Shown: positions 3 to 11,796 of the stretch, piece by piece
Numbering within the stretch: the first letter of the stretch is position 1
Layout of the letters: each line of letters opens with the position of its first letter
IMG/VR virus record: IMGVR_UViG_3300034684_000114
Location: 1-23,665 of that record
Source of the DNA: a virus
Reading direction: 5' to 3' (one strand)
DNA: 23,665 nt
Made by a program: the position numbers and the translations under genes
The notes under the pieces: model-generated
Database searches by the model: none
Told to the model about the DNA's origin: nothing
Seen by the model: only the letters and a program-made list of their open reading frames with translations

Positions 3-107
3 ATACAAATAGATGTTAATTTGCTGCAATTTTCTTTCACCCATTGGGTGAAAGAATGGTTTTGGCTTAACGATTATAAATACTTGCTTAAAGGGTTATA
101 TGAGTAG
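3..107 (+). CDS. Possible C-terminal end of a convergent gene entering from the left (partial)
   Basis: One plus-strand frame is open from the window edge to a TAG at 105-107 and translates to a tryptophan- and tyrosine-rich tail (for example THWVKEWFWLNDYKYLLKG). It would overlap the last codons of the minus-strand gene ending at 88. The composition looks protein-like, but 34 codons open to an edge can occur by chance, and a minus-strand frame here is also open. The region outside the window would settle it. Confidence 0.2.
   Translation: MQIDVNLLQFSFTHWVKEWFWLNDYKYLLKGLYE
32..56. repeat. Perfect 11-bp inverted repeat with 3-nt loop
   Basis: TTCTTTCACCC and GGGTGAAAGAA are separated by ATT. 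The hairpin lies about 30 nt beyond the stop of the leftward operon's last visible gene. Neither strand has a U-tract directly after the stem, so it is not a textbook intrinsic terminator. It could be a protein-binding palindrome or an mRNA 3' stem, or it may lie inside a convergent reading frame. Confidence 0.6.
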
Positions 108-1101
108 ATTGCACGTAGAATCTAGGACTATACTTGCCACCGTAACATAATAGCGCCCTTCTGAATAATGCCTGATCCTCGATTTCACTGCGCACGCCAT
201 CTGTATCAAACAGCAAAACGAATTTCTTAAGATAGGTAATAAACGCTGTATAATAGTCACTGCTACTGTCGGTTCCTGCAAGAATCTGAGCGCCCTCGGG
301 CAGTACGACTGCATCTTTATTCTGTTCTTCGAATTCCGAAATCTGTCTACCGTATTCCTCTGTAAGTCCAGAAAATGAAAGCAGTGCTCCGGTCTGTCCA
401 TCCATGAAAGTATTTTCTGATTCAGCCACAGCCTTTTTCCACTCGGGATCTATACTCATTAGAATCGACTTTATTGATTCCTCAACAACCTGCGTTTCAG
501 TAAACACTGACATTGCGCTCTGTCTATAATTGCGACGAAGAAGTCTGCTCATATAATCATCGCATTTCAGAGCTTCTCCTTCTTCTATCAACCGGTTTAC
601 AGATCGAATCATATTGAAGAATATATCCAGCTGCAGGTTCAGCGTAGGCTTTACAAGATTTGAAACCAAACGAAGCCACCTATTCAGTTCAACTTCTTTA
701 GTAAAAGTATCATCATCATTTGCGTACTTAATCAGAAAGGCATACTCAGCATACAGGACAACCTGTTCCTCGTTAGTAAGGGCGCGGGCATCAGAAGTTC
801 CAATCAATCGAAGGAAGGATCGCGTCTCTTCAAGATAAGTTTTATCGTATTCATCACCAGTAGCAAATGAGATTGAACCTGTCTGTTCTTGGCGTTTTGA
901 AAGGACATTAAGAAGTTTATTAAGCTTTCTAAATGCATCTATGCTCAATACTGATTTTTCAGAATCTATTCCATACACATGTTGGAAACCATCCTTAAAT
1001 AGGCGGGATGTAAAAACGTAATCCTGTTCTTTAAGAAAGAATTTTGCTGATTCGTTCTGTAAATCAGCTATCGTCTTTAGTTTTACGAAGGTGTCGCTCA
1101 C
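88..1101 (-). CDS. Unknown 337-aa protein, last visible gene of the defence operon
   Basis: I do not recognise this protein with confidence. The start is GTG at 1101, preceded by GGAGGGG six bases upstream and lying 16 nt after the helicase stop, so it is co-transcribed with the restriction genes. It is soluble-looking and largely helical, with no signal peptide or membrane segment and no obvious nuclease or ATPase motif. The C-terminal sequence FRRALLCYGGKYSPRF resembles a segment I associate with DUF262 (GmrSD-like) proteins, which usually continue further. The protein may therefore be a shortened DUF262-type relative or a dedicated accessory subunit. The DUF262 N-terminal nucleotide-binding motif is not visible. 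The gene is certain as a CDS; its function is open. Confidence 0.85.
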   Translation of the reverse strand: MSDTFVKLKTIADLQNESAKFFLKEQDYVFTSRLFKDGFQHVYGIDSEKSVLSIDAFRKLNKLLNVLSKRQEQTGSISFATGDEYDKTYLEETRSFLRLIGTSDARALTNEEQVVLYAEYAFLIKYANDDDTFTKEVELNRWLRLVSNLVKPTLNLQLDIFFNMIRSVNRLIEEGEALKCDDYMSRLLRRNYRQSAMSVFTETQVVEESIKSILMSIDPEWKKAVAESENTFMDGQTGALLSFSGLTEEYGRQISEFEEQNKDAVVLPEGAQILAGTDSSSDYYTAFITYLKKFVLLFDTDGVRSEIEDQALFRRALLCYGGKYSPRFYVQSTHITL

Positions 1102-1117: not shown

Positions 1118-4096
1118 CTATTCTTCAACTTTCAGGAAGCCCTGCTCAAAAGCTCCCGGGAACTGAAATCTTTTCTCTTTATTACCAAGGCCAGCAAACT
1201 TAACAACGACAATAGCGCCATCAATTCCTATCACATGACCCTCGCCAAATGCCTTATGAGAGACAATCGTTCCAGCTTTGATCTTGCTGGTATCAACCTT
1301 AATGACGGCTTTCTTAGCTGGCATTGATACCGGTGTCGGAGGTACATAAGCCGGATGATAAGTTGATCCGCTTGAATAGGACGGTTTTGACGGCTGAGCT
1401 ATCGATGTTCTCTTCGCCTCATACTTTGCCGGTTTCTCGGCAACTTTTAATACAGGCTCATCGTCCTCGTCTTCATCTTCATCATCCAAGTAACTGCTAA
1501 TATTAGTAAAAATTGGTCTCTCTGGAACGTCGTCATCCCTTGGCGATTCTGCCTGCATGGAAGACGAAAGCTGTCCGGCCATAGCATCATAATCGGCACG
1601 AGAAATAACAGTGCTATACAAACCAACATTCTCACCCGTATGTCTATCGATTCCGGTATAAATCAAGCTTGCATCTTCATAACGTTTGAACTTGTATACG
1701 GCATCGTTCATTAGTGCTTCATTGAATACATTTAACGAAACCAGCAGCTCAAAATCCTTTACATCCAATCCAGTGACTTTCTTAAACAGATCGGGCTCTA
1801 ACTGTGTAATGACGTCCTGCAAGCTGTACTCTCGATAGTCGGTCAGATACATGAACACAGGCACTCGGGTAGCAAACTTGATCAGCTTTTCCTGAATCAT
1901 CTTACGTTTTGACTTATATTCCTTTTCAGCCTCAGTAAGCTCTTTCTTTTCTTTCTTTGTTAATTCCTTGCCTTCCTTTTTGGCTTTCTTTACTGCATTA
2001 GACTTATTAATGATTGTCTCAATATCAGCATTCAAGCTACGGAATCCCTCAATGCGCATCAAGGCATCCATTGCCTCCGGGCTGGCAAGAAGTCGTGAAA
2101 GGGTATCATTATCTACGTTAACCAGAAGCGCGCTTTCCCAACGTTTCGCAAGAAGAGTAGCGGAGGTACCTGCCATAGCGATATCAAGAATTTCTGCTGC
2201 ATTGACCTGTCGCATAGCGCTTCCGTCATACGCCAATACCGGCAAGAAACTAATGAATTCTCCGACTTTCTTTTCGGGATTGCTTTCTGCAACATTCAGT
2301 CGGCAACTATAATCGGATATCTGACGAAGGGCACGATCCAGAGCAAAATCGAATACATAGCATTCATTTTTAATAATCTCTTTTTTCCCTTTATCCGTCA
2401 TCACTTCCCACGGACTTTGTACACGGAATGCTGTCTGGAAATAAGTCTCTGGACTTGACAGGTTACGTAGCATAAAAACACCCGTCCAAGGCCTGATGGT
2501 AACACCGGTCGTTAGCTTACCACATGAAAGCGTGATTGTTTTCGAGTTTAAAGGATCTTCCATTGAACGACGAACTGGTTCCAGTGCGGCTACACCAATA
2601 CCAGCTGCAGTACCCGCACAAACATTCACCTTATAATCGTGATAAAAAGCATTTTGCTTCTGAGCAAGTAAATTAGCCATTGCTTGACAAGACGCCACAT
2701 TAGGTAAGAACCAAAGCGTGTGTGATAAGACATTAAGAAGTCTGGTGTCTGAATAAGGCATAGGCGGTTTTTCAGCACCGAGCTTCAGTTCATCAACGGA
2801 AGTCTCCAAATATGAGCCACGTATCAGATCGAGCCATTTCTGGACATAATCCTCGAATACAAAGTGAGCATCTTTTCCTTTACCTTCTGCGGAAAAGAAT
2901 ACATTAAGATCAAACTCATCAAACTCACCCTGCTTAGCAATTTGCTGGATACTCTCCGGTATTTTATACGTCATCATGACCATCCGAGGCAAAGCAGCAT
3001 ATGGATTTTCACCTTCACCAGACCAGTTTGCCTTTGCTCGCTGTTCATCAGAATATGTCCAGTTATATATCTGTTCTTCGATGAATTCGCCAGAATTCAG
3101 TGCACGAAACGGTGTACCTGACAGAAAAAGATAGTATGTTGTAGTGATTGGCAGCCAAGTCTCATCGTATGCGTTACCTGCATCATAGGTACTAAGGTCT
3201 TCGTCATATGAATCTTCTTCGTCCTGTTCAAAGAGTTTCTTAGCATTATCTTTCCATGCGCCAAAATGATACTCATCAAAAATAACAAGATCCCAGTTCG
3301 TAGAATGCACCCATTCGTTATTTGCCTTAATTCCGCCGGTTTCCTTATTTACTCCAAGAAAATCTTGAAATGAACCAAAGCAAACGATAGGTCTATCCTT
3401 ATCTGCTTCTTTGTACTGCTGATCTGTTGACTTACCACCAATCTTCTCCGGGCGCGTAATAAACTGCCAACCTTCAAAGTCAACATGGCTCATCAGATCC
3501 TCTCTCCAAGCTGTCTGTACAGCAGGCTTAAATGTCAGAATCAAAACGCGTTTAAACCCCATCTTCTTAGCAAGTTCATAAGAAGCAAAAGTTTTTCCAA
3601 AACGCATCTTTGCATTCCAAAGGAACTTCGGTGTACGCCCGCTATTTTCCTCGTAAGCGGATTTATAGTAGGCCATTGTACGATTCACAGCATCTTCTTG
3701 CTCGGGACGCATTTTAAATGTCTGTGTACGATTTTCAATATTTTCAGTTCCAGTCTTAATTGCAGTGACAGCGGCCTTAACATCGTTTACACTGCAACGG
3801 AACCATTCATTTCTATCTTCCCCAGCATTTAATTGTTTAAATCCTCTTTTTTTTAGTTGATCATGTACATCATGATCCGTAAAACAGCTGCCATCATTTT
3901 TCATGGCTGACCAATAAGCCAGAATGCGATATGGAACAGCCGCAGTATGCACTTGCTCTTTCACACGAGTCTCAACATCGCGCTCAGTATAGCCGACCTT
4001 AACGTAGCCTTTGTGTGAAGCTACGCCTTCAAATTCATAAACATAAATTGATGGATGAGAATCAGGTCTCTGAGGGAAAAACACCATATCAGGCAT
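1118..4096 (-). CDS. GIY-YIG-like (T5orf172) / DEAD-family helicase fusion, restriction subunit
   Basis: This 992-aa protein is probably the cleaving and translocating subunit of the restriction system. Residues 17-48 (IYVYEFEG, then GYVKVGYT and a following R) match the T5orf172/GIY-YIG nuclease fold. A superfamily 2 helicase follows: Q-motif-like MRPEQEDAV at 129-137, Walker A AKMRFGKT at 162-169, DEYH at 274-277, SGTPF at 326-330 and a motif VI-like AFRVQSP near 555. A Lys/Glu-rich probable coiled coil lies near 700-735 and an acidic run (DDEDEDEDDE) near 870. The last 50 residues, with HKAFGEGHV, VVKF and FQFPGAF, resemble an SH3/Tudor-like barrel. The ATG overlaps the upstream stop by 8 nt and has GGAGGTGA upstream, so translation is coupled to the EVE-like gene. 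Assignment to restriction is inferred from domains and neighbours. Confidence 0.9.
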   Translation of the reverse strand: MPDMVFFPQRPDSHPSIYVYEFEGVASHKGYVKVGYTERDVETRVKEQVHTAAVPYRILAYWSAMKNDGSCFTDHDVHDQLKKRGFKQLNAGEDRNEWFRCSVNDVKAAVTAIKTGTENIENRTQTFKMRPEQEDAVNRTMAYYKSAYEENSGRTPKFLWNAKMRFGKTFASYELAKKMGFKRVLILTFKPAVQTAWREDLMSHVDFEGWQFITRPEKIGGKSTDQQYKEADKDRPIVCFGSFQDFLGVNKETGGIKANNEWVHSTNWDLVIFDEYHFGAWKDNAKKLFEQDEEDSYDEDLSTYDAGNAYDETWLPITTTYYLFLSGTPFRALNSGEFIEEQIYNWTYSDEQRAKANWSGEGENPYAALPRMVMMTYKIPESIQQIAKQGEFDEFDLNVFFSAEGKGKDAHFVFEDYVQKWLDLIRGSYLETSVDELKLGAEKPPMPYSDTRLLNVLSHTLWFLPNVASCQAMANLLAQKQNAFYHDYKVNVCAGTAAGIGVAALEPVRRSMEDPLNSKTITLSCGKLTTGVTIRPWTGVFMLRNLSSPETYFQTAFRVQSPWEVMTDKGKKEIIKNECYVFDFALDRALRQISDYSCRLNVAESNPEKKVGEFISFLPVLAYDGSAMRQVNAAEILDIAMAGTSATLLAKRWESALLVNVDNDTLSRLLASPEAMDALMRIEGFRSLNADIETIINKSNAVKKAKKEGKELTKKEKKELTEAEKEYKSKRKMIQEKLIKFATRVPVFMYLTDYREYSLQDVITQLEPDLFKKVTGLDVKDFELLVSLNVFNEALMNDAVYKFKRYEDASLIYTGIDRHTGENVGLYSTVISRADYDAMAGQLSSSMQAESPRDDDVPERPIFTNISSYLDDEDEDEDDEPVLKVAEKPAKYEAKRTSIAQPSKPSYSSGSTYHPAYVPPTPVSMPAKKAVIKVDTSKIKAGTIVSHKAFGEGHVIGIDGAIVVVKFAGLGNKEKRFQFPGAFEQGFLKVEE

Positions 4097-4532
4097 TTGT
4101 CGTCACCTCCTCTTTATCAAATATTTCGGACTCTTTTTCATTTATATACTGTTGTAAGCGTCTATCCGTTCTTGCTTGTATCTGAACCTGACCAAGCCCA
4201 TGCTCACGTAGATCTTCAAGTTTAAAAGTTCCATTAGGATATTCAGTTATCAGTTTCATCTGAATATACTTTTCCTTTTTTGAAAAATAGTTATTCGATT
4301 TTTTAGCTGGAATAGCATATTCATTTTCCGATAGTAATTTCTCATCCACTGAATCACTCACGACCTCGCATTTGAACTTTATTTCGCTATGCGGGCTCCC
4401 AATATAGATATAAGCAATATCACCCTTACGAATCGTGAATGAGTTCTTCCATACGACAAGATTTTGCTTCTTAAAATGCTCAATAATGTCATATACTTTA
4501 ACACTGCATGGAATAATCCAATGTTCTGCCAT
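4089..4532 (-). CDS. EVE/PUA-like domain protein
   Basis: This 147-aa protein looks like a single EVE-type PUA fold: the N-terminal WIIPCSVKVYDIIEHF and then KGDIAYIYIGSP are the expected strand-loop patterns. In that family the fold binds modified bases in DNA or RNA and often sits beside methylases and restriction enzymes. I chose the ATG at 4532 because the fold begins there and GAGGTGA lies five bases upstream. An upstream ATG at 4550, overlapping the methylase stop as ATGAGTGA, would add six residues. The gene sits between the NPPY methylase and the nuclease-helicase. A plausible role is reading the methylated state and steering the nuclease, which is inference from position. Confidence 0.75.
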   Translation of the reverse strand: MAEHWIIPCSVKVYDIIEHFKKQNLVVWKNSFTIRKGDIAYIYIGSPHSEIKFKCEVVSDSVDEKLLSENEYAIPAKKSNNYFSKKEKYIQMKLITEYPNGTFKLEDLREHGLGQVQIQARTDRRLQQYINEKESEIFDKEEVTTNA

Positions 4533-4542
4533 GTTGCTCACC

Positions 4543-6069
4543 TCACTCATCGCCACCTACCGCAGAAATTCTTGAATCTATATATTCCCATTCTTCATTG
4601 GAAATCGACCACATTTTTTTCAGCATCTCGTCTGTGTATTCGCCCGTATAAGTACCAAGATCAGGAACGAAGCAATAATTTTTCTTTGTTACATCCTGAG
4701 ATACCACCGTTTGAAGCAAAAGGAAGCGAACTAACTTTGTAAAGATATATGATCGATATGACAAAACTTCATTTTCGCTATCAAAAGCACCCAAAACGAT
4801 AAATGATTCTGTACAGCACTCGCCGGGCTTAGCAATGCGTGTGTTTCCTTCATAGTAGAAACCTACCGGCTTTGTGAAATCAGTCTGACCCGCTATTGGT
4901 GCCTTAGGTGCCAATAGCTTCCATTTATCAAGATAGCCTCTGCTATCATCTACATCTTCTCTTCTTGCATATTTCAATCCTATTCTCTGAATGAACCAGC
5001 AAGGCACTCCCTTTTCTTGAGGATCATAATTTGTTGGTAAACCAAATGGCTTACGAGAAGAAACCCGATCATTCAGAAATGATTTGTATTTTGACGTAAC
5101 CTTTTTCACTATATCTACCGAAAGATTCTGCCGAATAAAAGTATCGTATTCATCGAGATATCTCACAGCGACTGATGGCCTATCCGGATTGAAATTTGTT
5201 ACTTCACAAGCGCCTTTATTATCTCTATCCCAAAGGAAATAGCAGGCACCTCCCGCCAAATCCACGCCCGGAAATACATCCTTAAAATTCTCATAATCTA
5301 CCAACTTTCGGATGCGTCTATCTGATAACATTTCCTGCCTAAACTCATTTAGTCCCTTTCCTCCGGTAAACCATCTTGAAGGAATGATCATTGTCAAATA
5401 GCGAGGGTTTAATTTCTTTGCCTGCTCTACAAAATGTTGATAAATAGGTTTTGCACTTTTTCCATTTCCGCTATCACTAAGCTGATAAGGCGGGTTTCCA
5501 ATTATTACATCAAATTTCATTTTGAATATTTCCTCCGGATGCGTTGTGTGAATAAGCTCATAAGCATGAGTTTCAAGATCATCTCCGCGCTTTTCTTTGC
5601 CGTATTCCGACTCTGATGCACCGCAGAATACACATCTTCCATTCTGAAACCGATGCTGTATTATTTTAAATCGAATATTCCCATCAACTGTGTCAAAATG
5701 GGTTACTGCATAATTCCCATTTGCAGTTTTTGAGCAGTACAAGCTTCTTCTTGACAGAAGCGCTGTAAGCTCTGTAATTGAGATTCCATAAAGCTGCTTC
5801 TTAAAAATATGATCTGTTCGCTCCTGAAGATCTGGATAAAGAGGTTCCAGTCCTTTAAGCAGCCGCTTAGCAATTTCTCTAAGAAAAACTCCGCTTTTAC
5901 AACCAGGATCAAGAAATGTTGCATTTGGATCTTCAAACAATTCCTGCGGAAGCATGTCTAACATAGCATTTGCAACTTCTGGAGGCGTGAAGACCTCATC
6001 GTTTGACAGATTTGCTATGCATGACAGAACGTCCGGATTGTAAATTGTGTTAAACAAATTATTCGCCAT
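4543..6069 (-). CDS. Eco57I-like N6-adenine DNA methyltransferase
   Basis: This 508-aa protein should transfer methyl groups from AdoMet to adenine in DNA. The motif X-like [13 protein letters not shown] is at 25-37, the AdoMet-binding motif FLDPGCKSG at 52-60 (Lys where Gly is usual), and catalytic NPPY at 192-195 within [18 protein letters not shown] pair at 146-149 lies in an insert before the catalytic motif. The C-terminal half, without clear motifs, is probably the target-recognition region. I chose ATG at 6069: AGGAGGG lies nine bases upstream and the start overlaps the preceding methylase-like gene by 11 nt. The coupling suggests that the two proteins work as a pair. It could also be read as the modification half of a type I/ISP-like or BREX-like system. 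Confidence 0.92.
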
Positions 6070-6796
6070 GATCTTGCACCCTCCTATAATTTGCAATGTA
6101 GGAGGTCAAGAACTCTCCTTCATCACTCGGTTTTTCTTCTGGTAGGAAGTCGAGCAAATTCATCTGTCCGACTTCGTTTTCTACACTTTTTCTCTTCTTT
6201 TTTTTAGCGCCCGGATCGGGCTCATACTCTCCAGCAAGCAGTTTGTCGAATCGGTAGTCCTTCCGCTGCATATTATTTCCGGTTACAAACGCCCACTCTG
6301 AAAAAACAATCGGCTCAGCTGTATCATTTCCGTTTTCATCGACCTCTTTCATACTGAGGGCATTGCCGCACACAATATTTCTACTAAGAATAAATCTCAC
6401 TGCTTCTTGACAGTCTTCATTGACTTCTTTCTTGCATATTTCTGTATATTCCTTGTCCCAGATCTCATACAATCGATTCCGGCATGTAATAACATTATCA
6501 ATGAGAAGATCAACTCCATATATACTGGCTACCGCTATTACCGATTGCTTCTCAAATTCAAGAGGTAGAGGTTTTTTCCTTCTTGGCGGTATGGCTCTTT
6601 TTTTGGCTGCTTCCAGCTTCCTACGAAGAATTTCGCTAAGAAAATTACCATCGCCACAGGCTGGTTCCAGAAACCGACTGTCAACCCTCTCCGTCTCTGG
6701 TTTCACCATATTCAGCATCGCGTTCACTTCGCGCTCAGCAGTAAATACTTCACCGTGATCCGCGACTCGTTGCCGAGATTTTACTTGTTTTGCCAT
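6059..6796 (-). CDS. Methyltransferase-fold subunit lacking NPPY
   Basis: This 245-aa protein has the AdoMet half of an N6-adenine methylase: [15 protein letters not shown] near 14-28, motif [12 protein letters not shown] at 42-52, an acidic motif II (YGVD) near 93-96, and NIVCGNAL at 140-147. Where DVIVGNPPY would be expected it has [16 protein letters not shown] (about 170-185), so the catalytic Asn-Pro-Pro-Tyr is absent. A Lys-rich stretch (KKKKRK) follows near 198-203. It is short for a complete M subunit. The next gene overlaps by 11 nt and does carry NPPY. I infer a split or regulatory methylase partner that may bind AdoMet or a DNA target rather than catalyse. Confidence 0.88.
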
Positions 6797-6853: not shown

Positions 6854-9151
6854 TCAATCCGCTTCAGATATCATTCTCTTAAAGTGTTGCCCGTGCCCCA
6901 TCACGTCAAATATCGTGCGGAACACATCCCTGTACTGATCACAGTCTATACTCTCATCCACAAAATGCATGCCATCATTAAATGCATCCGACCTGTTGAT
7001 GTAAGAGAGCATCGCCTGCGCCAGATGATACTTTGTATAATCTGGAACTCCGCCACCAGCGTCTTCAGTTATTTTTTTCTTAACAGCTTCCAGAACGGTC
7101 GTGCTCAACACATTGTTATCGACTGCACATAGCTGGATGAAGTAATATTCAAGAATCCTCCTGATCACGTTCATCAACGGGATCGGGGAATCCAGTGTCT
7201 CGTACTCACGCCAAAGCGCATTATAGGAATTCTGTACCGGGTTGTAATTCCGGTCTTTCTCAGAAACCTTAGTGGCCTCTTTGACACATTTTTCTACTGT
7301 CGATACGTTATTCTTCTTGTTTACCTTAAAGAAGGAAACATACCGGTAATGGCTCACCTGGTTATACGTGATCTCCCTGTGGAAGAAAGCATTATGCGTC
7401 AGTATAAACAGCTGCTGGATATACTTTCCTTCGTATTCAGTACCGTTCCCTCTGACGGCTGCGCCGCTTACGTTATTGCTGCAAACCCCGATCATTTCAC
7501 GCACAAGAGCGCTTACTATGAACAGGGCACTGGAGTCCATGCTGGAAACAGGATCGTCTATAATTACAATCTTATCCTTCCCAGAATCCGTCTCTGATTG
7601 GCTTCCTCGTACAACGTGATAAAAGTATAGGAACGCAATGAAGTTTCTCTCACCTTCGCTGAGGTGATCAGCCACCCGTCCGTCTTCACGAATAACCTCA
7701 TAGGTTCCTTTCACGCCCTCTTTTTCATGAAGAGTAAAGCCCTCAAATCCTGAATCTTTCAGATGTGCATTGATGCTATCAACCGTGGCAGCTGTATTTA
7801 TCACACTGGCATTGAGCGTGTTGATCTCGCCGGATAGCTTTCTATACTCTCCCTGAAGTGTTTTGACCCTACCATCCAGTCTCTTTGCTTCCGCTTCAAT
7901 ATCTGCCTTGCTCTTTTTATAAGCCGCAACATCATCTTTTAGCAGGAAGGCGATCTCCTCCCACACCATGTTGAAGCATTCCAGTTGCTTATCAGGTTTT
8001 GTGTCAACTATTTCGTTGTTGCCCTGAATAGTTTTGTTAATCTCGGTAATCGCATCGTCAAGCTCTGCAATAATGGTATCTGTATCCTTTAACTCAACCA
8101 GCTCACCCGGAGTTGTGCGCTTCTTAGCTATCAGCTGCTCGTTTTCAGTAATAAGAGTTTCGAGCTGAGCAACCAGCTTTTCATAATCTGCCGTCTCCAC
8201 CTTTGGAAATACAACTGAGAGATTATTATTAAACAGCTCTATCATCGCTGCCATCTTTGCAGTGTATTCCGTCTCCAGTGTTTCCAACGCATCAAGTGCT
8301 TTCTGGTAGCCCTCATCAAAAGCCTGTGCTATATCTGTTTCAAAGGTCTCTGGCAGCTTTCCTTGGCAGAATGGACACTTTCCTTCAGTGTGGCCAACAT
8401 AGTCTGCATGACCTTTCTTAACCCACTCCGTAGCATTCAGCGCCTTCATGAATTTTGCAAATTGCGTTTCACTACGGCTTGTAACTTCTTCGCCAAGGTA
8501 GCTGGCTCCGGAAAGGTCATATTCGCCTTCAAGATCCGTCGACTTCTTAAATAACGGATACTTTCGGGCATCCGGATCATAAGCGATATCGTATAGTTTC
8601 TGGATGTCCTCTTTCTTATGCTCAACAGCGGCATGATGGCCGGATAAAACCTCATCTGCGAACTGCAGCTTCTTTTTCTTCCCGTTCTGAGTCTGATCAA
8701 AACTCTTTCTAAGGTCATCAGTCGTGTTCCAACACGTAGTTTCGAATGCATCTCGAAGAGGCTTCAACTCGCCGCTTTTCTTATCACGATCTTCGGCGGC
8801 CTGCTTCCCGTCGGCAACTACGGTTTTTCTTTCTTCCGTCTTATCATCGATCTGTTTTCTGGTCTCAGCATTTTCTTCGCTTAATGTGAATACGCCTTTC
8901 AAGTCTCCATAGTCTGCGAGATTTCGTGTTATGAAATCCTGATCGTAGACAAGGATTGTATAATCCGCTGGGTTGACGCCTGTCGCCCAGTCAAGGCACT
9001 CCGGGTGCCTAAATGCGTTAGCAAGTGTGCTCTTGCCAGCTCCATTCTTTCCGAAAAAGAAATTTACATATGTCGGATCTACCGTCTCTCCATGAAAGGT
9101 GGCAGTATCAAGTTTTATCAGTTTTATTAAAGACGTCATCTTGTCAGTCAT
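6854..9151 (-). CDS. RloC/PrrC-like AAA_13 ATPase, candidate anticodon nuclease
   Basis: This 765-aa protein has an ABC/SMC-type head split by a coiled coil. Walker A GKNGAGKST is at 34-42, the zinc-hook CPFC at 259-262, coiled-coil segments flank the hook, the signature LSEGER is at 497-502, Walker B VIIDDP at 529-534, and the switch His is in ILTHN (H586). RloC proteins share this zinc hook with a PrrC-like anticodon-nuclease C-terminus. Here the C-terminus has R664-X3-E668 (RRILE) and later H709 and H729, candidates for the Arg-Glu-His triad. In that family DNA damage or failed restriction triggers tRNA cleavage and growth arrest. Linkage to restriction genes fits. The ATG at 9151 has AAAGGAGG upstream. 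Catalytic assignment is by pattern only, and a plain AAA_13 ATPase is the alternative. Confidence 0.85.
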   Translation of the reverse strand: MTDKMTSLIKLIKLDTATFHGETVDPTYVNFFFGKNGAGKSTLANAFRHPECLDWATGVNPADYTILVYDQDFITRNLADYGDLKGVFTLSEENAETRKQIDDKTEERKTVVADGKQAAEDRDKKSGELKPLRDAFETTCWNTTDDLRKSFDQTQNGKKKKLQFADEVLSGHHAAVEHKKEDIQKLYDIAYDPDARKYPLFKKSTDLEGEYDLSGASYLGEEVTSRSETQFAKFMKALNATEWVKKGHADYVGHTEGKCPFCQGKLPETFETDIAQAFDEGYQKALDALETLETEYTAKMAAMIELFNNNLSVVFPKVETADYEKLVAQLETLITENEQLIAKKRTTPGELVELKDTDTIIAELDDAITEINKTIQGNNEIVDTKPDKQLECFNMVWEEIAFLLKDDVAAYKKSKADIEAEAKRLDGRVKTLQGEYRKLSGEINTLNASVINTAATVDSINAHLKDSGFEGFTLHEKEGVKGTYEVIREDGRVADHLSEGERNFIAFLYFYHVVRGSQSETDSGKDKIVIIDDPVSSMDSSALFIVSALVREMIGVCSNNVSGAAVRGNGTEYEGKYIQQLFILTHNAFFHREITYNQVSHYRYVSFFKVNKKNNVSTVEKCVKEATKVSEKDRNYNPVQNSYNALWREYETLDSPIPLMNVIRRILEYYFIQLCAVDNNVLSTTVLEAVKKKITEDAGGGVPDYTKYHLAQAMLSYINRSDAFNDGMHFVDESIDCDQYRDVFRTIFDVMGHGQHFKRMISEAD

Positions 9152-9189: not shown

Positions 9190-9402
9190 TCAATCCGAGA
9201 TTTTTCCGTCCCGGAGCCACGCATCCACTTCAGAAATCTTGAATTTATATCGCTTGCCAGCCTTGTAGAACGGCAGCTTGCCGTCCTTGATCCAGTTCCT
9301 GACTGTATCAGTGCTGACGCTAAGATGATCTGCAATATCTTCAAGGTTTACCCATTTTTCTGGCATTGCTTCTGATGTAGTGTTTTCTATTTCGTTACTC
9401 AT
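9190..9402 (-). CDS. Excisionase-like HTH DNA-binding protein (70 aa)
   Basis: Residues 16-67 form a MerR/excisionase-type winged HTH (HTH_17): VNLEDIADHLSVSTDTVRNW, then GKLPFYKAGKRYKF and a final EVDAWL. Such small proteins act as excisionases or local transcription regulators. The start is the ATG at 9402, which has GGAGG six bases upstream; longer in-frame starts lack a ribosome site and would overlap the previous gene. It lies third in the operon, 16 nt after the stop of the 216-aa gene and 38 nt before the RloC-like gene. Because no integrase is visible, autoregulation of the operon is a reasonable guess, perhaps at the inverted repeat around its promoter. Confidence 0.88.
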   Translation of the reverse strand: MSNEIENTTSEAMPEKWVNLEDIADHLSVSTDTVRNWIKDGKLPFYKAGKRYKFKISEVDAWLRDGKISD

Positions 9403-9418
9403 GGTTTCCTCCATCATC

Positions 9419-10069
9419 TCAGTGTGAATCACCAGTGCTAAATACAGGTATCTGGACTCCGGCCTCAAGCAGTTCCTGTATCAGGTCACAACGTTTGATC
9501 GCCCAATGAGTCCTGTTCATTTCATTCAGCTTATCGTCGCCTACAAGCTGGAGCTCTTCGAGAAGCTCATTCAGCCTCCACTGTGGAACATCCAATTTGT
9601 AACCGCAGTAATAAGCCTTCACATAGTTATCGTATATCTTTATATCGGGCACAAACCCGTAGATCACTTTTTGACTCTCATCAGCTTTACCATATTGACT
9701 ATTTTCTGCCATAAAAAGCGAAGGCATTGTTTTTATCTGGGCTCTGTTCTCCTCAGTCATCGGAGCAAATTTGTCCATCGTCTCTTTTGTCATGCACTCG
9801 TTCAGGGAACGATTACGCGGTATCTTGACATAAGGTCTGTCGAACTCTTCTCCGCCAAGGACAAATATGTTGTAATACTCCCGATCAACCTTCGGCGGAA
9901 TATAGAAATTTCCTCCGAAATAAGGCATTGCAGCCATCTGCTGTGTAACCTGCATGTTGATGGTTCCATAGTTCGGAATCATCACTGCATCGTTTCCACC
10001 CTGAATATACTGAGGCTGACCGTTTGCCGGAAGCTTTGCTGCAGATATTACTTGGATTTCATCACTCAT
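9419..10069 (-). CDS. Unknown 216-aa protein with N-terminal IPNYGTIN motif
   Basis: I do not recognise the family. ATG at 10069 has GAGGAGGTGG upstream and overlaps the previous gene's stop by 8 nt (ATGAGTGA), so the two are coupled. Residues 20-40 contain YIQGG and IPNYGTIN (31-38), nearly the same as the last part of the preceding protein. After a low-complexity linker, the body begins near residue 50 (YFGGNFYIPPKVDREY) and ends with a helical region. No membrane segment or catalytic motif is visible. The shared motif suggests that it assembles with the neighbour. The function is unknown. Confidence 0.85.
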   Translation of the reverse strand: MSDEIQVISAAKLPANGQPQYIQGGNDAVMIPNYGTINMQVTQQMAAMPYFGGNFYIPPKVDREYYNIFVLGGEEFDRPYVKIPRNRSLNECMTKETMDKFAPMTEENRAQIKTMPSLFMAENSQYGKADESQKVIYGFVPDIKIYDNYVKAYYCGYKLDVPQWRLNELLEELQLVGDDKLNEMNRTHWAIKRCDLIQELLEAGVQIPVFSTGDSH

Positions 10070-10994
10070 TGGAACCACCTCCTCGTTTGCCAAGATCAAG
10101 GTTAATAGTTCCGTAGTTAGGGATGACTGTACTACCAGCGCCTGATTGCTGAATAATCAGCGGATTGTAAATATTCTGTGTGGTAGGAGGAGTCGTCTTC
10201 TCTTTGTCTTCATCTCCGAAATCAAATGTTTCATCTTCTTGGTCTTCATCTCCGAAGTCAAACACCTGATCCTCGTCTTTCTCACTGGTAGAGGTTTTTC
10301 CTGACCTTTCGCATTTAAGAGTGTATACATCCATTTCGGAAGTGATGTTTCTGCCCATACCACCGGTGTACGTTCTTGGAGCCCGCCCATTCTCAGGGCA
10401 CCACTCATCATAGGTGCTGCGTCCTACGCTATTGTCTTTTCTGTACACAACTACATAATGCCAAACTCCAAGCAGAAATGCTGGAAGGCACACTTTTCGA
10501 AGACCGCCCAGTGCGGCCTTTTTTATTTTGCCTCCATCTTCACTGACATAGAATTCTTCATCTTTACCAATACTGTCATCCTGCTGAATCAGATCAAGAA
10601 GTGCTTTTACAAGGCGGACGTCCTTCTGAACCTCTGTGCCTGTTTCAAGGAAATCGTCCACAAAAATAGACATGGCATTAAGCGCATCCGGGAATCTCTC
10701 CCTCACGCGCTTATCAAAAGTATCTATTTCAGGTGTGTCACCGAACGGTAAATACTGTCCGGTTGATGTTTTGCATGACTTAAAGTCGTTTGTCTTTCCC
10801 TTAAGGGCTCCTTCTCTCGGTTCCTGATACTCAGGATTGATCACTTTGATCAGCCCCATCAAGACTTCCGGATCTGAGAGGCCATCCCTCTCGCCCTTAT
10901 AATGCTGCCTCGCTTTGACACGCTGCTTCAGTGCCTGAAGAACCAGGACAAAGAAGGTGCCGCCACAAAGCCGTGGTTTTTCATCTGTTGTCAC
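10062..10994 (-). CDS. Unknown 310-aa protein, first gene of the defence operon, C-terminal IPNYGTIN motif
   Basis: I do not recognise the family. A GTG start at 10994 is preferred because GGAGAG lies seven bases upstream; a TTG at 11009 would add five residues. The first 220 residues are a mixed helical domain without known catalytic motifs. Residues 245-268 are two 12-residue acidic repeats beginning FDFGDED, followed by a Pro/Thr/Gln/Asn linker. The C-terminal motif IPNYGTIN is at 291-298 in a Gly/Ser/Gln-rich context. The architecture of domain, acidic linker and short polar motif suits a scaffold or sensor that recruits the next protein. It is the promoter-proximal gene of the operon. 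Confidence 0.82.
   Translation of the reverse strand: MTTDEKPRLCGGTFFVLVLQALKQRVKARQHYKGERDGLSDPEVLMGLIKVINPEYQEPREGALKGKTNDFKSCKTSTGQYLPFGDTPEIDTFDKRVRERFPDALNAMSIFVDDFLETGTEVQKDVRLVKALLDLIQQDDSIGKDEEFYVSEDGGKIKKAALGGLRKVCLPAFLLGVWHYVVVYRKDNSVGRSTYDEWCPENGRAPRTYTGGMGRNITSEMDVYTLKCERSGKTSTSEKDEDQVFDFGDEDQEDETFDFGDEDKEKTTPPTTQNIYNPLIIQQSGAGSTVIPNYGTINLDLGKRGGGSNE
10191..10262 (-). repeat. Tandem 36-bp coding repeat (2 units)
   Basis: Two adjacent units encode FDFGDEDQEDET and FDFGDEDKEKTT. The DNA is also close to identical over the first seven codons. This produces an acidic linker between the folded part and the C-terminal motif of the 310-aa protein, and could vary in copy number by slippage. 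Confidence 0.85.
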
Positions 10995-11218: not shown

Positions 11219-11289
11219 AAACGATGAACGACCTATGAATTTTCCCCCTGCGATTGCTCACAAACAGCAAATCACAGGAGGAAAAATTT

Positions 11290-11796
11290 ATGTCAAAAGA
11301 AGTAAAGCAGTATTTCATCTACATCCGTAGCACCGGTGAGAAGGTTCCGGTCACAAAGGAGCAGCACGATTCCTTCTATAGAGAAGCGTCCCGCATCCGT
11401 GACAAGGAACAGAACCACGGCAGATGCATGTGCCCTTACCGCTTCATCTGGAAGTGTGACGGCGATTGCGTCGGCTGCGAGTATCACGCGGCGGGTGACA
11501 CCCTTTCTCTGGATGTGCCTAACCCGGACGGCAACGGCAGCATGTACGATTACATCCCGGACGAGAGTCCTTCTATGGAAGATGTGATTGCTGACCGTCA
11601 GCTTCTTGAGCAGCTCTTCGCTCGTCTCCGTGAACTTGATCCCGAAGCGGATACCATTATCCAGCTTTGGCAGGATCACCCGGAAGGCATCTCCGACAGA
11701 GCCATCGCAAGAGAACTCGGTCGTCCGCAGAAGACCTTCGCGGATCAGATGAAAAAATACCGTACTGATTTAAGAAGAATCAGAGACGGCAAGTAA
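11290..11796 (+). CDS. Sigma-like HTH regulator with Cys-rich N-terminal segment
   Basis: This 168-aa protein opens the rightward module. ATG at 11290 has a strong AGGAGGAAAAATTT ribosome site. A Cys-rich part (C46, C48, C56, C60, C63 in the pattern CMC, CDGDCVGC) may bind a metal. The C-terminal half resembles a sigma-70 region 4 / ECF-type HTH: RLRELDPEADTI, then GISDRAIARELGRPQKTF at about 135-152, then KKYRTDLRR. Proteins of this type are common regulators in phages and conjugative elements of Clostridia. There is no region 2, so it is unlikely to be a complete sigma factor. A strong terminator follows 25 nt after the stop, so it forms its own transcription unit. Confidence 0.85.
   Translation: MSKEVKQYFIYIRSTGEKVPVTKEQHDSFYREASRIRDKEQNHGRCMCPYRFIWKCDGDCVGCEYHAAGDTLSLDVPNPDGNGSMYDYIPDESPSMEDVIADRQLLEQLFARLRELDPEADTIIQLWQDHPEGISDRAIARELGRPQKTFADQMKKYRTDLRRIRDGK

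Follow-up and report, generated by a model that had tools for sequence, protein, structure and literature searches.

A small amyloid-like patch very probably links neighbouring proteins of a gut-bacterial prophage defence island

Two proteins encoded side by side in the defence island of a gut-bacterial prophage, here called A and B, are very probably held together by a small amyloid-like patch. A carries a short motif near its C-terminus, and B carries nearly the same motif near its N-terminus. Across 57 homologous A/B pairs, the two tags match within a locus and differ between loci. Pairing of A and B through matched motifs is well supported by these sequence comparisons. A and B probably form one signalling module that assembles via a short homotypic motif, following the logic of the HET-S/NWD2 and bacterial amyloid signalling (BASS) systems. 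The window analysed here is an entire IMG/VR virus record (IMGVR_UViG_3300034684_000114; 23,665 nucleotides).

The Operon and Its Genomic Setting

The minus strand of the window carries a defence-like operon that consists of A, B, an excisionase-like HTH gene, an AAA_13 ATPase, and a restriction-modification (R-M) block (Table 1). Two methyltransferase-like genes open this block; the next three encode a 155-aa protein, a T5orf172-helicase, and a 337-aa protein. The plus strand holds phage replication genes, as judged from the translated ORFs. The overlap between the A and B genes likely couples their translation. Among the 51 homologous loci with enough downstream DNA, an HTH_17 gene follows A-B in 45 and an RloC-like ATPase gene in 43. 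The HTH gene was also considered as a MADS component, an assignment that was rejected because the MAD1 equivalog scored 54.6 bits against a cut-off of 80.

The operon stands head-to-head with a conserved, regulatory-looking phage gene (window positions 11254-11796). At the equivalent site in four relatives (L049, L050, L053, and L059), A-B is followed by varying R-M or helicase cargo. Because the cargo at this site differs among relatives, the site looks like a prophage defence hotspot.

Table 1. Features of the A-B operon and its downstream genes in the window.
Feature	Coordinates	Strand	Basis or detail
Protein A, 310 aa	10062..10994	-	GTG start at 10994 with GGAG upstream; helical domain ~1-231, disordered tail 232-310 ending in motif
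C-terminal pairing motif of A, QSGAGSTVIPNYGTINLDL	10092..10148	-	Tail/head comparison
A stop / B start overlap, 8 nt, ATGAGTGA	10062..10069	-	Sequence
Protein B, 216 aa	9419..10069	-	Disordered head 1-53 with motif; folded domain ~61-212
N-terminal pairing motif of B, QGGNDAVMIPNYGTINMQV	9947..10003	-	Tail/head comparison
Small excisionase/MerR-like HTH_17 protein	9190..9402	-	Profile match
AAA_13 RloC-like zinc-hook ABC ATPase (PADLOC PDC-S06)	6854..9151	-	C259/C262 hook; R664/E668/H709
Adenine-MTase-like protein	6059..6796	-	Weak MmeI/MAD2-like match
Eco57I-family DNA methyltransferase, cargo R-M module	4543..6096	-	Profile match
155-aa protein in R-M module, without family	4089..4556	-	
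T5orf172 (GIY-YIG) + ResIII helicase, probable restriction subunit	1118..4096	-	
337-aa protein without family, operon end	88..1101	-	

The Shared Motif within the Window

The octamer IPNYGTIN is encoded twice on the minus strand, at 10101-10124 (residues 291-298 of A in its 310-aa reading) and at 9956-9979 (residues 31-38 of B). A sequence-only reading of the window had named these same residues, which proved exact on re-reading, and had described a Gln/Gly/Asn-rich context for both copies, which agrees with the Asn/Gln/Gly/Ile-rich composition found here. The octamer sits within a longer match of about 19 residues, QSGAGSTVIPNYGTINLDL in A and QGGNDAVMIPNYGTINMQV in B. This motif belongs to an IPNYGT class, in which an [IV]Q[IV]G-like RHIM core was looked for and is absent.

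From composition, 6e-6 exact shared 8-mers are expected between A and B. The local alignment score of the two proteins is 58, compared with 32.7 +/- 4.9 for whole-protein shuffles, and the top score among 5,000 such shuffles was 64, above that of the window pair. The window pair alone is of moderate significance only, and the weight of the argument rests on homologues. Between the two genes, synonymous differences affect five to six of the eight octamer codons (ATCCCTAACTACGGAACTATTAAC vs ATTCCGAACTATGGAACCATCAAC), which rules out a recent DNA duplication or gene conversion.

Motif Placement and Domain Structure

AlphaFold2 models built with family alignments divide each protein into a folded and a disordered part. 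Residues 1-231 of A are folded with high confidence, and residues 232-310 are disordered. In B, residues 1-53 are disordered and residues from about 61 to 212 are folded. Thus, both motifs are predicted to sit in disordered tails, outside the folded domains; the sequence-only reading had named burial of both motifs in folded cores as the result that would speak against it, and structure prediction placed each motif in a tail instead.

Neither A nor B matched a family among the Pfam, NCBIfam, PADLOC, and PHROG models, and a PDB sequence search returned nothing for either protein. Foldseek found no structural match for A. For B, it gave a weak resemblance to the Lon N-domain (E 0.02), which is not relied on. 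One A relative has a weak HamA match. The A-domain has no recognisable catalytic site, and a search for a transmembrane helix found none (maximum 19-residue Kyte-Doolittle hydropathy 1.45).

Co-variation of the Two Motifs across Homologues

Homologues were gathered from IMG/VR, GTDB genomes, phages, and plasmids, and the loci come mostly from related prophages. Where a locus holds both domains, B is almost always the next gene downstream of A. The tail of A was compared with the head of B within and between loci. For the 14 pairs whose A-domains are less than 50% identical, the cognate mean score is 57.8 vs a non-cognate mean of 32.1 (sd 10.7), and none of 20,000 permutations reached the cognate score sum. 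The outcome is the same with 29 pairs at <70% and 42 pairs at <90% A-domain identity. Some non-cognate B outscored the cognate B in 5 of the 14 divergent pairs, since motif classes recur between loci. The partial correlation between A-tail and B-head similarity is 0.64 when both domain identities are controlled. Co-variation in homologues, the check proposed by the sequence-only reading, is thus strongly positive in both the permutations and the partial correlation.

Matched motif classes are exemplified by L024 (FNQSGSGVNIGQATNV in A, FEQSGQGTNIGLAQNV in B), L056 (NQYGEKNIHIDRVETLN, NQYGEKNVHIDHADNIH), L047 (NVHYGTGDIYSDIETLTIN, NVHTGSGDIYSNIGSVTVN), L063 (ITQYANKIYNIEHVENLN, LQQNADRIYNIEQANSVN), and L042 (QYGNNGTQIGHVENY, QYGNDSTQIAYVQHY). 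An xQ[IV][GA] RHIM-like core is present in 10 of the 57 relatives. Comparison of L042 with L039 is especially direct. Their A-domains are 86% identical, their ATPases 95%, and their B-domains 55%, whereas the motifs are wholly different in both partners; on this sequence evidence, the two loci represent a natural concerted motif swap. Homologous pairs with a missing or unrelated motif, the other outcome that the sequence-only reading had set against itself, were not what the comparison returned: matched motifs are kept, and even the weakest pair (L115; score 32) has Q-x-G-type motifs on both sides.

Where paired motifs share a residue, the codon is also shared in 274 of 635 cases (0.43), vs 0.42 expected if codon choice were independent. 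Codon use is no closer than expected; therefore, selection acts on the peptide and the motif is not copied DNA.

The Domains in Other Architectures

The motif behaves as a connector between separate polypeptides. Among the separate proteins, one motif HMM matches 54 of 63 for A and 55 of 62 for B, and most of the others carry different motif classes. The same HMM matches none of the 17 proteins in which the domains are fused to other domains (0/9 fused A, 0/8 fused B). Therefore, the connector serves only parts that are made as separate chains.

In relatives, the A-domain is joined to NLRs by both routes. The complete proteins checked (L058, L062, L108, and L111) fuse it to NACHT plus SNaCT14 and the shorter L066 protein to NACHT alone, each without the motif. 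More broadly, NACHT proteins of L058, L062, L066, and L108-L111, most of them NACHT-SNaCT14, begin with it. In L050, L053, L105, and L106, A is a separate protein, and the gene directly after it encodes a NACHT-SNaCT14 NLR whose own N-terminal motif matches, as in the L106 pair (VNNYGTVQNQKFISIETMNGDI in A, VDNHANVGNQTIINIQNMTGNI in the NLR). The L105 NLR was recognised by a 945-aa sequence that begins like the L050 protein. Cognate scores of A with the NLR (45-52) exceed the non-cognate means (24-35) but not always the non-cognate maximum.

An A-like domain also starts ABC-3C CTD11 proteins (hhalign probability 97%, E 5e-11), where it may serve as an adaptor; the zinc-cysteine region that follows it looks like an HNH-type region. 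In L078 (1489-3045), the A-domain is fused to a C-terminal region of about 300 aa that has neither a Pfam match nor the motif. The B-domain is found, without the motif, at the N-terminus of proteins that end in TIR, PC-TIR, or FRG effectors. Fusions to TIR_2, CAP12-PCTIR_TIR, and FRG occur in various bacteria and phages (L151-L156, L026, and L027).

Other proteins share in the motif pairing. An unrelated N-terminal family, A', replaces A upstream of B and has its own matched C-terminal motif (L137:4143-4796 and L028:5363-5926). A' also starts ABC-3C-like proteins (L157 and L158). Third proteins with the locus motif at their N-terminus are encoded in two loci, a DUF6650 protein at L050:12689-13210 and a 204-aa protein at L139:7974-8588, which suggests branched pathways.

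The A and B genes are rare and mobile. An even draw of 399 genomes from the Bacillota-type phylum of L033 contained 6 with a B-domain and 13 with an A-domain match, of which seven are strong. The nearest A relatives (74-79% identical; L031-L034) lie on MAG contigs assigned to Lachnospiraceae and to Prevotella; binning errors probably explain the Prevotella assignments.

The RloC-like ATPase

The ATPase encoded downstream of A-B is an AAA_13 ABC ATPase with a conserved zinc-hook CxxC (C259/C262). Its residues R664/E668/H709 have spacing identical to that of the RloC triad R692/E696/H737 (PMC2610378). The triad histidine is lost in many ATPase relatives. Because of the zinc hook and the triad spacing, a translation-disabling output of the window locus through this ATPase is plausible. 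However, A-B occurs without the ATPase in L022, L049, and L060. Therefore, A-B cannot depend on the ATPase in general.

Proposed Mechanism and Alternatives

A change in the receptor-side protein would expose or cluster its motif. The exposed motif would then template the same, probably cross-beta, fold in the tail of its partner and thereby cluster the partner's domain. Such a module would act in prophage-encoded defence together with the RloC-like ACNase/ATPase and the R-M enzymes. B is placed on the receptor or regulatory side because it occupies the position that the NLR has in related loci and, elsewhere, is fused to TIR, PC-TIR, and FRG; this direction is the least certain step. A, with its effector-like C-terminal motif, would form the output side on its architecture only. 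The reverse, in which A senses and the effector side is formed by B or the downstream RloC-like ACNase, is a possible if somewhat doubtful arrangement. It would suit the presence of the B-domain in effector-bearing polypeptides and the RloC-type triad retained by the window ATPase, and the A-domain could act on the input side in ABC-3C proteins, where it lies ahead of CTD11 and of what looks like an HNH region. However, effectors of HET-S and BASS systems carry the motif at the C-terminus and receptors at the N-terminus (PMC7889193), in agreement with the roles given here to A and B. Additionally, the A-domain takes the N-terminal place in NACHT proteins, where effectors usually stand.

The amyloid-like nature of the patch is drawn from analogy, and a homotypic but non-amyloid beta zipper, formed as a discrete heterodimer or a short beta-arch pair in a stable stoichiometric A-B complex, is an unlikely substitute for it. 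Co-variation, selection, and exclusivity show pairing rather than fibrils, and overlapping genes suit a stoichiometric complex. However, same-sequence Asn/Gly/Gln/Ile-rich 19-24-mers in disordered tails resemble known amyloid signalling motifs, which are also matched by the many sequence classes, the RHIM-like members, and the use with NACHT NLRs. It is very improbable that both motifs instead dock on a third protein common to them, either the HTH protein or the RloC-like ATPase, with each motif tracking that partner. The two genes do follow A-B in most loci (43 and 45 of 51, respectively), but matched motifs persist without either gene in L022, L060, and L064 and without the ATPase in L049 and L119, so that docking to the ATPase was rejected. 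Moreover, the L042 and L039 ATPases are 95% identical, yet the motifs of the two loci are completely different. A functionless match, left by chance or by ancestral duplication in low-complexity tails, has a negligible probability. Low-complexity tails lift the background, as seen in the best of the 5,000 shuffles, but locus-specific matching in deeply diverged pairs, concerted swaps, and fully randomised synonymous codons argue against it, and permutations over homologous pairs refute it statistically.

Relation to Known Systems

In HET-S and BASS systems, the receptor carries the motif at its N-terminus and the effector at its C-terminus, the genes are adjacent, and motif classes match within loci (PMC7889193; PMC8086366). 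Aggregation is reported for a BASS3 RHIM-like peptide, and amyloid predictors reportedly do not discriminate such motifs (PMC8086366). A-B resembles BASS1-10, with their BELL effectors and NLR receptors (Dyrka et al., 2020, reviewed in PMC7889193), in its adjacent or overlapping genes and in the short Asn/Gln/Gly-rich motif that is C-terminal in one product and N-terminal in its neighbour. As in BASS, the motif classes vary yet match within a locus, the motif lies in a disordered tail, and it is absent from domain fusions. Unlike BASS, the window operon encodes no NACHT/NB-ARC NLR and has the unrelated B-domain, which contains no Pfam domain, in its place. The A-domain shows no obvious transmembrane helix or BELL character, and the hosts are Bacillota and their prophages, whereas BASS is reported mostly in filamentous actino- and cyanobacteria. 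A-B thus appears, from its sequences, to work like a BASS system, but it cannot be counted as one, since the locus has no NLR partner, which is a defining feature of BASS.

The fungal HET-S/NWD2 and RHIM-like PP-motif (HELLP/PNT1) systems likewise join a receptor N-terminus to an effector C-terminus through a homotypic motif of about 21 residues, and a RHIM-like QIG/QIA core occurs in some relatives of A-B. However, the domains differ on both sides, and the IPNYGT class lacks the RHIM core. Clade 14 bNACHT proteins (NACHT + SNaCT), to which Pfam SNaCT14 presumably corresponds, have been described without a discernible effector (PMC12169576). The A-domain is N-terminal in some NACHT-SNaCT14 proteins and motif-paired with others, whereas the window has B in place of any NACHT or SNaCT14 protein. 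The link to NLR-type amyloid signalling drawn by the sequence-only reading therefore holds for relatives of A, although no NLR is found in the window. That reading had also proposed assembly of A and B through the shared motif as sensor and effector; matched, co-varying motifs outside the folded domains bear out the assembly, and we infer its amyloid nature and the two roles.

Two further families are similar in part. The downstream AAA_13 protein resembles RloC/PrrC anticodon nucleases in its zinc-hook CxxC and triad spacing but differs in that the histidine is not conserved in many relatives; no description of an RloC/PrrC linkage to a motif-paired A-B module was found. ABC-3C/Lamassu effectors with CTD11 have an N-terminal region homologous to the A-domain. 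Unlike them, A has neither CTD11 nor a C-terminal docking CTD, and the window ATPase is RloC-like, not LmuB-like.

Implications

No report of the A/B pairing was found in the open literature, where the motifs may overlap with those left unclassified in the original BASS study. Nor did the open literature yield a version from Bacillota prophages that dispenses with the NLR and has B in its receptor-side place. The balance of the evidence tips modestly towards an NLR-independent bacterial amyloid signalosome on prophages, in which an exchangeable motif would wire A or A' to a NACHT protein or a B-domain, and a third protein with the same motif would create branched pathways in some loci.

Whether bacterial signalling amyloids exist in NLR-independent pathways has been posed as a question in a review (PMC7889193). 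For such amyloids, the present locus and its relatives offer a candidate that is concrete and testable, in Bacillota and not in filamentous multicellular bacteria. The natural swaps, in which the same domains carry a different motif in both partners, provide ready-made specificity experiments. The A-domain may provide the N-terminal function that has been missing from clade 14 bNACHT proteins. The B-domain, for its part, looks like a regulatory module without a name that TIR, PC-TIR, and FRG defence proteins have in common.
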